Shown: one piece after another, positions 36,938 through 38,081 of the stretch
Numbering within the stretch: position 1 is the stretch's first letter
How the letters are laid out: each line of letters opens with the position of its first letter
Origin: Rasiella rasia
GTDB lineage: Bacteria > Bacteroidota > Bacteroidia > Flavobacteriales > Flavobacteriaceae
Assembly (NCBI RefSeq): GCF_011044175.1
Contig: NZ_CP049057.1
Coordinates: forward strand, 1,937,501-2,001,500
Reading direction: 5' to 3'
DNA length: 64,000 bases
Notes under the pieces: model-generated
The model's database searches: none
The model's input: the letters and a program-made list of their open reading frames with translations, nothing else
Told to the model about the DNA's origin: nothing
Position numbers and translations under genes: made by a program

Positions 36938-37537
36938 ATGAAAAATGCAATGAAATTTACCGTACTGCTAGCACTGTTCTTTGTCACAACAGCTATAAAC
37001 GCAACAATTCCTCAAGAAAAATTCCAGAAACAACTATTAAATAGTGAGTATACGAATTCAAAAGACCCTAAGACAGTAATTATTCGAAATAAAAAAGGAA
37101 CTGCGGTTTATGAAACCGAAGTAACTGCTACTGACTCTAAACACGCATTAGTGAGAAGTGTAAATCTGGCTGACGGCACATACGTTTTTGAAATCGTAGA
37201 AGACTCAGAAGTGAAATTAATCCCATTTATAGTTACAGAAGGGACAGTCCTTTTAGATGAAGAAAATACAAAGACCGTTTTCAAACCTACTTTGCAAGTA
37301 AAGGACGACCTATTATTAGTGAATCAATTATCACTCACACAAGAGCCTCTCAATGTTACTATTTATTATAGTGAAGAAGGATTCGACCTAAATGCTTTTG
37401 GAGTGATACAATCCGATGAAATCAAAAGCGGGATTATACTTCAAAAAGCGTATAAGCTGGATAAGAATAAAACCGGAAGATATTTAGTAAAGCTAACTTC
37501 TGAAGGAAAGGTGTTTACTGAGATGTTCAATTTTTAG
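36938..37537 (+). CDS. Secreted protein of unknown function, divergent from AraC regulator
   Basis: A 199-residue exported protein with a signal peptide (VLLALFFVTTAINA, cleavage near residue 23). The mature part is beta-rich with two similar halves: DGTYVFEIVEDSEV near 79-92 and TGRYLVKLTSEGKVFTEMF at the end, resembling the short Ig-like repeat of secreted Bacteroidota proteins. There is no T9SS domain and no lipobox. It probably resides in the periplasm or outside the cell. It has a good promoter and terminator of its own and lies divergent from an AraC regulator that may control it (inference). Confidence 0.75.
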   Translation: MKNAMKFTVLLALFFVTTAINATIPQEKFQKQLLNSEYTNSKDPKTVIIRNKKGTAVYETEVTATDSKHALVRSVNLADGTYVFEIVEDSEVKLIPFIVTEGTVLLDEENTKTVFKPTLQVKDDLLLVNQLSLTQEPLNVTIYYSEEGFDLNAFGVIQSDEIKSGIILQKAYKLDKNKTGRYLVKLTSEGKVFTEMFNF

Positions 37538-37584
37538 ATTTTGGATTCTCATATAGGTATCCCCAGAAACCCCCAAATATTTTA

Positions 37585-37616
37585 AAAGCTCCTACAGAAA
37601 TGTAGGGGCTTTTTTT
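37585..37616 (+). terminator. Rho-independent terminator after the secreted protein gene
   Basis: AAAGCTCCTACA (37585-37596) pairs with TGTAGGGGCTTT (37601-37612), one G-U pair, GAAA tetraloop, followed by T residues to 37616. It ends just before the tandem repeats. Confidence 0.9.
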
Positions 37617-37630
37617 AGTTAAGTAGAAAA

Positions 37631-37968
37631 TACTCAAGCAAGCTTGGAAAGGGATTACCTCCCTACGGTCGGTGATCCCAAAAGGGGAGACTGGCAACCA
37701 AATCGCTACGCGATTTAAAAAATGCCTAAGTAAAAAATACTCAAGCAAGCTTGGAAAGGGATTACCTCCCTACGGTCGGTGATCCCAAAAGGGGAGACTG
37801 GCAACCAAATCGCTACGCGATTTAAAAAATGCCTAAGTAAAAAATACTCAAGCAAGCTTGGAAAGGGATTACCTCCCTGCGGTCGGTGATCCCAAAAGGG
37901 GAGACTGGCAACCAAATCGCTACGCGATTTAAAAAATGCCTAAGTAAAAAATACTCAAGCAAGCTTGG
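37631..37968. repeat. Three 107-bp tandem repeats plus a 17-bp partial fourth copy
   Basis: Full units span 37631-37737, 37738-37844 and 37845-37951; 37952-37968 repeats the first 17 bases. Between units only one substitution is visible (A to G in the CCCTACGGTC segment of unit 3). Each unit holds hairpin-forming parts: GGGATTACC with GGTGATCCC, AAATCGC with GCGATTT, and a terminal copy of the AAAAAATGCCTAAGT arm. The unit length is not a multiple of three, so the open frames crossing the array change frame at each copy and are not credible genes. The array lies between a terminator and tRNA-Ser. I do not recognise the element. Confidence 0.95.
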
Positions 37969-37992
37969 ACATTTTTTACTTAGGCATTTTTT
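37931..37992 (-). terminator. Perfect 22-bp inverted repeat 3' of tRNA-Ser
   Basis: The 22 bases at 37931-37952 are the exact reverse complement of 37971-37992, with an 18-nt loop. It begins 4 bp after the tRNA gene's 3' end on the minus strand. A terminator or 3' processing structure for the tRNA is the simplest reading. The left arm lies in the last 107-bp repeat unit, and the same arm recurs in the other two units. Confidence 0.7.
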
Positions 37993-37996
37993 GTTG

Positions 37997-38081
37997 CAGA
38001 GAGGAAGGGATTCGAACCCTCGATACGTTGCCGTATACACGCTTTCCAAGCGTGCGCCTTAAGCCACTCGGCCACCTCTCT
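37997..38081 (-). tRNA. tRNA-Ser (anticodon GGA)
   Basis: An 85-nt class II tRNA on the minus strand. The 7-bp acceptor stem AGAGAGG/CCTCTCT, the D arm GCCGAGTGGCTTAAGGC, the anticodon arm CACGC-TTGGAAA-GCGTG with anticodon GGA, a long variable arm (TATACG/CGTAT) and the T arm with GGTTCGAAT are all readable; the long variable arm supports serine. The discriminator is G73 and the 3' CCA is not encoded. It reads UCC and UCU codons. It sits between ansA and the tandem repeat. Confidence 0.97.

Follow-up and report, generated by a model that had tools for sequence, protein, structure and literature searches.

The locus studied here lies within a 64,000-nucleotide stretch of DNA (the window). A tRNA-Ser(GGA) gene is followed on its 3' side by a tandem array, which is placed between the tRNA and a convergent ORF (36938-37537) and is the only tandem array that TRF lists for the 64-kb window (99% matches, score 686). 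The features of the locus are collected in Table 1. A terminator-like hairpin of the convergent ORF lies just ahead of the array (37584-37613, + strand), and no relative of the ORF's protein (36938-37534) was found in a synteny attempt.

Table 1. Features of the tRNA-Ser(GGA) locus and its tail, in window coordinates.
Feature	Position	Strand	Basis
tRNA-Ser(GGA), anchor gene, nt 58-63 AATCCC	37996..38081	-	ARAGORN; Rfam RF00005, 57.7 bits
Tandem array, period 107, 3.3 copies	37620..37969	-	TRF, unit comparison
Long hairpin P3, unique 5' arm AAAAAATGCCTAAGTAAAAAAT, directly behind tRNA-Ser(GGA)	37971..37992	-	22-bp exact complement
P3 apex GTCCAAGCTTGCTTGAGT, recurs within array	37953..37970	-	Unit comparison; relatives' tails have similar AGCTTGCT-type apices
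P3 3' arm ATTTTTTACTTAGGCATTTTTT, first copy, then T run, terminator-like	37931..37952	-	Terminator scan, unit comparison
P4 hairpin, first copy, AAATCGC-GTA-GCGATTT; further copies at 37807-37823 and 37700-37716	37914..37930	-	Unit comparison
TH1, T-arm-mimic hairpin, loop GCA, extended stem (GA/GA tandem)	37865..37893	-	Covariance model R1, E 4.7e-4
TH2, loop GTA	37758..37786	-	Covariance model, unit comparison
TH3, loop GTA	37651..37679	-	Covariance model, unit comparison
Truncated P3 copy, 31 bp, after last TH (TTTCCAAGCTTGCTTGAGTATTTTCTACTTA)	37620..37650	-	Genome search of unit, unit comparison

The first-pass annotation had described three near-identical 107-bp units on the 3' side of tRNA-Ser, and this was confirmed by TRF and by comparison of the units. 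In the phase used there (37631-37737, 37738-37844 and 37845-37951), no base distinguishes units 1 and 2, and unit 3 departs from them at a single base, unit position 35 (window 37879), which on the tRNA strand is the middle (N) of a C-GNA-G triloop, GCA replacing GTA; the 17-bp partial copy shows no differences. The pairing reported between an arm of the unit and a unique arm beside the tRNA is also real, the latter pairing 22/22 with the P3 3' arm and its copies. Read on the tRNA strand, the tail runs from the P3 5' arm through the apex and 3' arm to P4, GGTTGCC with a CU-rich spacer, and a final hairpin named TH. Since the P3 apex recurs after TH in the window, the tandem unit spans P3 apex to TH, and the 107-bp unit is a fragment (from one hairpin's apex to TH) of a larger tail element.

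Every unit carries a terminator-like hairpin on the tRNA strand, making up 3/4 such sites of the region, with 0.9 expected in all, and a single unit folds with an advantage over shuffles that is no more than moderate (z of -2.26 on one strand and -2.25 on the other). The whole 107-bp unit occurs at one place in its own 3.39-Mb genome (G000). A phage or plasmid origin was rejected, window 37600-38000 having no match in a distant-mode search. The earlier description of the feature as structured, apparently non-coding, tied to a tRNA gene and recently amplified or homogenised is thus supported, as is, in the form of a possibility, the suggestion of a mobile palindromic element. The 10-base match to the anticodon arm (GCTTGGAAAG) is found on the complement of the tRNA strand, where it partly coincides with the AAGCTTG apex of P3, and is treated as chance; the meaningful tie to the tRNA is TH, whose 3' arm AATCCC equals tRNA nt 58-63.

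TH forms the end of the unit on the tRNA strand and mimics the tRNA T-arm (GGGATCACC...GGTAATCCC; in the window, GGGATCACC-GA-CC-GNA-GG-GA-GGTAATCCC). Its outermost pair follows the T-stem, being AGGA..TCCT at many tRNA-Arg genes and GGGA..TCCC at tRNA-Ser and tmRNA. With one mismatch allowed, GGGANNACCGNAGGTAATCC was found in 35/299 family genomes and its reversed-pattern control in 0. An exact TH scan of a species-genome collection yielded at least 115 stretches, nearly all from Bacteroidota, holding at least 149 matches; among the matches listed, 141 belong to Bacteroidota/Chlorobiota and 8 lie elsewhere (assignment made here; one is an unclassified MAG). Among these 141 listed matches, 95 have a tRNA or tmRNA gene no more than 1000 nt upstream on the same strand, compared with 3 that have a tRNA downstream on the same strand, 7 upstream on the opposite strand and 3 downstream on the opposite strand. 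The remaining 46 comprise 22 that are cut by the sequence start and 24 others, and none of the 8 listed matches outside Bacteroidota/Chlorobiota has an upstream tRNA. For the matches listed, the median distance from tRNA to TH is 143 nt, with 60/95 at 120-160 nt, and the anchors of 99 tails are Ser (61, four anticodons), Arg (17), tmRNA (13), Val (3), Pro (2), Lys (2) and Phe (1). Copies beside tRNA genes, the search for which the first-pass annotation had proposed, thus exist as TH hairpins in many Bacteroidota; the whole unit was found only in G000, and its congeners have parts of it.

Because GNA, ACC/GGT and AATCC are built into the pattern used, the TH statistics for loops and anchors carry some ascertainment; this applies to the AATCC found at anchor nt 58-62 in 74/88 tail tRNAs versus 29/81 others among the matches listed. 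The pattern also misses the window's own TH, which has an extended stem. A strict TH covariance model, from which nine loci judged to be chance were excluded, matched patchily, in 9/198 genomes drawn from the phylum, the window's genome included; it misses tails without a canonical TH, such as AGGGATCTATAATCCC at Arg(TCG). Nine TH loci without a called tRNA were read one by one: a masked or gapped tRNA is present in L120 and L172, a tRNA 3' fragment in L122, L197 and L209, a tRNA-like remnant in L154, and repeated tmRNA or tRNA 3' ends in L134 and L166, with nothing recognised in L206. The reading of these nine loci as islands ending at TH was tried and rejected. On two contigs of Flavobacterium terrisoli, L122 and L197 carry similar protein pairs (131 and 253 aa) upstream of fragments of tRNA-Ser and tRNA-Val, with a TH tail after each, and are probably related integrated elements.

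Among the 28 of 44 folds listed, many single-unit tails share the arrangement P1-P2-P3-P4-spacer-TH, in which P1 is a closing stem that reaches from the first bases after the tRNA to the spacer ahead of TH and encloses P2, a terminator-like GC hairpin with a T run, P3, with its AGCTTGCT-type apex, and P4; a few among the 28 (e.g. L114, L140, L146) lack parts of this scheme. For 74 tails among the matches listed, chosen for a TH at 100-200 nt and for distinct starts, folding energies compared with dinucleotide shuffles gave a mean z of -7.0, with z < -3 in 71/74. P1 arms of at least 7 bp were present in 65/74 own pairs versus 136/1480 swapped pairs, and the arms differ between tails; the window's tail reaches 5 bp at best. 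In the P1-type test 28/30 tmRNA tails were retained, and within G000 the Pro, Ser and Arg(TCT) tails alone passed at p 0.005, Val giving 0.065. Compensatory change is visible at the outermost pair of TH (G-C 20, A-U 11 and G-U 9 of 43 sequences) and in L232, L233 and L258, where the inner ACC/GGT is replaced by AAC/GTT. Column covariation in the TH alignment is weak, both sides changing in 1/8 pairs; the covariation score and the percentage paired stand above shuffles (reached by 0 and 1 of 500), but for covarying pairs and pair types the counts stay within the shuffled range (reached by 324 and 500 of 500).

The loops are oriented. Tail hairpins without a T run have GNA in 19/38 triloops and TNC in 2, compared with 40 GNA and 41 TNC among 492 triloops in control DNA from these loci, and the loops of TH itself are GNA triloops in 116/145 among the matches listed, under a pattern that favours GNA. 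GNA triloops are stable DNA loops. From this orientation, the tRNA-sense strand appears to be the folding strand. G-U pairs show no sense excess (132/2416 sense versus 115/2400 antisense), in contrast to tRNA/tmRNA controls in the same loci (256/2284 versus 139/2121), which favours folding of single-stranded DNA over RNA. The sense strand also folds slightly better (-65.1 versus -62.7 kcal/mol; lower in 29/44 tails with RNA parameters, p=0.003, and in 35/44 with DNA parameters), and GNRA tetraloops are found in 14/36 terminator-like tail hairpins versus 4/53 control terminator-like hairpins; these two observations do not settle the question of DNA or RNA folding.

One alternative is that the tail works as an RNA made together with the tRNA, in the manner of an rtT-like trailer with a role in processing, in termination or as a sponge, and that it is kept by selection and multiplied in tandem. 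Hairpins, T run and oriented loops all lie on the tRNA strand, and both the GNRA tetraloops and the lower sense energies speak for it. However, the sense strand lacks the G-U excess of the RNA controls, P2 with its T run would stop most transcripts ahead of P3-TH, and mostly decayed 3'-end copies together with a tail-less congener, both described below, are unlike a needed RNA. We therefore consider a trailer RNA unlikely, if still the strongest of the alternatives.

Further evidence comes from the sequence that follows TH. Among the matches listed, a copy of the anchor's 3' end with at least 80% identity is present in 25/114 testable copies, 17 of them perfect; the distribution of identity is two-peaked, with 80/114 copies below 60%, and 89/114 are without a good 3'-end copy. 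The test covered tRNAs with a fitting T-loop (TTTGAAT, present in some tRNA-Arg, did not fit) and copies that lie away from the end of the tail sequence analysed. In 19/25 cases the similarity ends with the gene, the next 14 nt matching the native trailer at less than 50%; this match is 50-80% in 4/25 and at least 80% in 2/25. A block that ends with the gene fits insertion with gene restoration, since a decaying duplication should not stop there. When each hairpin is counted once, giving 137 TH copies among the matches listed, the block after TH can be traced to the tRNA 3' end in 37 and to the tail itself in 32, with no traceable donor in 68. As in the window, the P3 apex follows TH in G001, L145, L164, L170 and L226. 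The tRNA 3' end from nt 58 is thus found in units of the class; the window's array has no full copy, and AATCCCTT alone remains there.

An identity block from nt 58 to the 3' end resembles an att core, and the tails could be scars of ordinary tyrosine-integrase islands that repeatedly integrated at hot-spot tRNAs and were lost, leaving 3' ends and flanking pieces. In line with this, L122 and L197 have similar proteins next to tailed tRNA 3' fragments, and integrase-like ORFs follow the units in L088 and L109. Scars would not, however, share a single hairpin architecture, TH sequence and spacing across a phylum. Moreover, there is no common overlap region between T-loop and TH; the two coincide in AAT next to the stem only, which also argues against a classical double-stranded crossover. 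In addition, a phmmer search with the four tyrosine recombinases of G000, none of which is near the tRNA-Ser locus, found a similar ORF near only 2/163 loci (0.6-8 kb per locus). An origin of the tails as scars is consequently rated as improbable.

Comparable arrays occur elsewhere in the window's own genome. Behind tRNA-Arg(TCT), G000 has an array of 163-bp units (2.5 copies, 99%; L031 1559-1970), each beginning with the tRNA 3' end AATCCTGTCTGGATCAC with T before it, and behind tRNA-Ile of an rRNA operon an array of 77-bp units (2.2 copies) that also begin with the tRNA 3' end and are without TH. The latter repeat is found in two rRNA operons (L027 1558-1730 and L028), with two extra 3' ends versus one. 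Single tails of similar look follow Val, Pro(GGG) and Arg(TCG). Within the genus, the orthologous tRNA-Ser of G003 is followed by a tandem repeat of another kind (121 bp, 1.8 copies) that has the TH core in common, and in G001 and G004 the tmRNA gene is followed by repeats of its 3' end; overall, such 3'-end copies were found behind 4/30 tmRNA genes. Elsewhere in the family, TH units lie behind tRNA-Ser(GGA) in G016, a member of another genus, and one lies behind tRNA-Pro in G011. At the orthologous tRNA-Ser locus of five congeners, G000, G001 and G003 have elements, that of G001 with a tRNA 3'-end copy after the last TH, G004 has an element cut by the contig end, and G002 has a simple terminator only; the G002 flank is not alignable by eye, so either gain or loss is compatible with this pattern.

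Units at different genes were also compared directly. Ten alignments of tmRNA units with tRNA-Arg or tRNA-Ser units gave 72.6-86% identity over 43-132 bp, and in Zobellia (G005) two alignments between the tmRNA and tRNA-Arg loci show identities of 73.6% (163 bp) and 71.7% (152 bp); the tRNA-Pro and tRNA-Ser rows of L245 are one overlapping locus and were left out. As judged from these alignments, units behind different tRNAs are shown to be homologous. Purely local replication slippage at hairpins, arising independently in many genomes with template switching instead of selection or mobility keeping the palindromes perfect, accounts for the near-identical units of the window and their truncated 31-bp copy, as well as for stems that are almost entirely Watson-Crick paired. 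It leaves unexplained the homologous units behind different tRNAs, the phylum-wide TH sequence and the 3'-end copies that stop at the gene end, and the occurrence of homologous units at unrelated tRNAs, which the alignments already suggest, is at odds with it; as a full account, slippage is rated as improbable, on a level with integrase scars.

Several observations extend the range of unit types. In Zobellia G005 (L063), a long unit between two tmRNA 3' ends has a reading frame (MKTMKLSMLLFFALGTVLISC..., collagen-like repeats) for a predicted lipoprotein-like protein; units are thus not always empty and can hold genes. In L063, L078, L079 and L091, behind tmRNA or tRNA-Ser, TH units take turns with units of a second type (CGCTAAAAA..GTC..ACC..GAC..TTTT..AACGC), the end of which is different. 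In G003, a 116-bp stretch with a TH-like hairpin is present twice at 88.8% identity, at the tRNA-Ser locus (L009 1759-1873) and, about 15 kb off and without a tRNA, in L012 (1498-1613). Movement of REP/BIME-like palindromes by a RAYT (Y1) transposase, to which the small palindromic units and this dispersed relative in L012 would conform, is very improbable and was rejected for G000, where PF01797 (Y1_Tnp) has 0 matches, control genomes including E. coli being positive, and where the unit is not dispersed.

Altogether, the feature is real and belongs to a widespread structured tRNA-tail element. On balance, and with moderate confidence, the array is best explained as a locally amplified piece of such an element, about 80-180 bp long, hairpin-rich and placed directly behind a tRNA gene. 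This tRNA-tail element reading is supported by the tie of TH to tRNAs, the strong folds, the 3'-end copies, presence and absence among congeners, the homology of units and the tail blocks behind TH. Counted against it are the TH copies without a donor (68/137) or without a good 3'-end copy (89/114), the patchy matches of the strict model, the scarcity of recombinase-like ORFs, the G002 flank that fits gain as well as loss, and the overlap of T-loop and TH in AAT only, which makes a classical crossover difficult to construct; in the window's array itself, the lack of a full tRNA 3'-end copy, the non-pattern TH stem and a P1 of at most 5 bp also weigh against it. Mobility of the element is likely, and so is local amplification of the 107-bp unit.

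Under the tRNA-tail element reading, the element would insert at tRNA nt 57/58, with TH as its distal end. The insertion would keep the gene intact by supplying a fresh tRNA 3' end, and the old 3' end would be displaced behind TH and decay there. Hairpins formed by the tRNA-sense strand as single-stranded DNA may serve in the joining, together with an enzyme acting in trans. In the window, the P3 apex would also have come to lie after TH, and slippage or unequal recombination between direct repeats, later than the insertion, could then have produced the three near-identical 107-bp copies. The 3' ends of tRNA genes are favourite docking points for genomic islands. If the reading is true, a small and widespread element that rebuilds tRNA 3' ends, carries its own terminator and deposits additional 3' ends would change how such hot spots are to be read.

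In the portions of the open-licence literature available, PMC8040213 included, no description of a tRNA-tail class was found. At gathering score, Rfam 15 gave no family except tRNA/tmRNA, and matches below it (E up to 5) cover no tail; the rtT family in particular has no match in the window at gathering score or in 7 loci with E up to 5. RF04351 was rejected, its matches lying opposite tRNA-Ser genes and below gathering score.

Several known systems share parts of this design. At attachment sites of tRNA-targeting tyrosine integrases, identity stretches from the T-loop as far as the tRNA 3' end and the gene is restored, and the tails are alike in having an identity block that reaches the tRNA 3' end (25/114, with a sharp end in 19/25). 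They differ in their tandem hairpin units of about 80-180 bp without a common overlap region, and an integrase gene of their own is not a feature of the tails (recombinase-like ORF at 2/163 loci). REP/BIME elements with RAYT are short palindromes with defined loops, as are the tails, which are instead tied to tRNA genes, with a unit that is not dispersed and no Y1 transposase in G000. Integron attC cassette arrays are made of units ending in a folded site, a property found again in the tails, and the Zobellia tmRNA unit even has a reading frame; the anchor, however, is a tRNA gene and not attI, and no attC core motif was noticed.

A likeness also exists to the tyrT-tyrV repeats of E. coli (annotated rttR/RtT RNA, tpr), which are, to our knowledge, so far regarded as a single-locus curiosity. 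These too are tandem units directly behind a tRNA. In K-12, tyrV has three copies of a 178-bp repeat, each ending in a tRNA copy of exactly nt 58-76 with T for G57, comparable to GGT followed by AATCC in the window. A 10-bp arm of the unit complements the 3'-end copy (0/2000 mononucleotide shuffles), so that a complementary arm is common to both systems, and 3/4 perfect triloop hairpins (stem of at least 3) are C-GNA-G (GCA, GAA, GCA), one G-AAG-C being different. The tyrT array is matched in 4680/5426 E. coli genomes, at 1-10 places each, and in none of the other 746 at the sensitivity of this search; strain SK1144 has no copy at the locus. On the other hand, the tyrV repeats have no sequence family in common with the tails, their anchor is tRNA-Tyr, their complementary arms are about 100 nt apart rather than forming a short TH, no P1-P4 tail was recognised, and they are annotated as RNA and small protein, unlike the tails. 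Bacteroidota tails and tyrV repeats have a design in common, possibly through convergent use of the same tRNA point. More tentatively, and with less confidence than in the reading of the array itself, both may be branches of a cross-phylum class of minimal non-coding mobile cassettes that insert at nt 58 of tRNA or tmRNA, act through single-strand hairpins (on the tRNA-sense strand, with C-GNA-G loops and an arm that complements the tRNA 3' end), rebuild the gene and form arrays, with the Bacteroidota tails as one branch and E. coli tyrT/rtT as the other. A widespread element of the tRNA-tail kind would also offer a comparative approach to how the tyrT repeats of E. coli arose.
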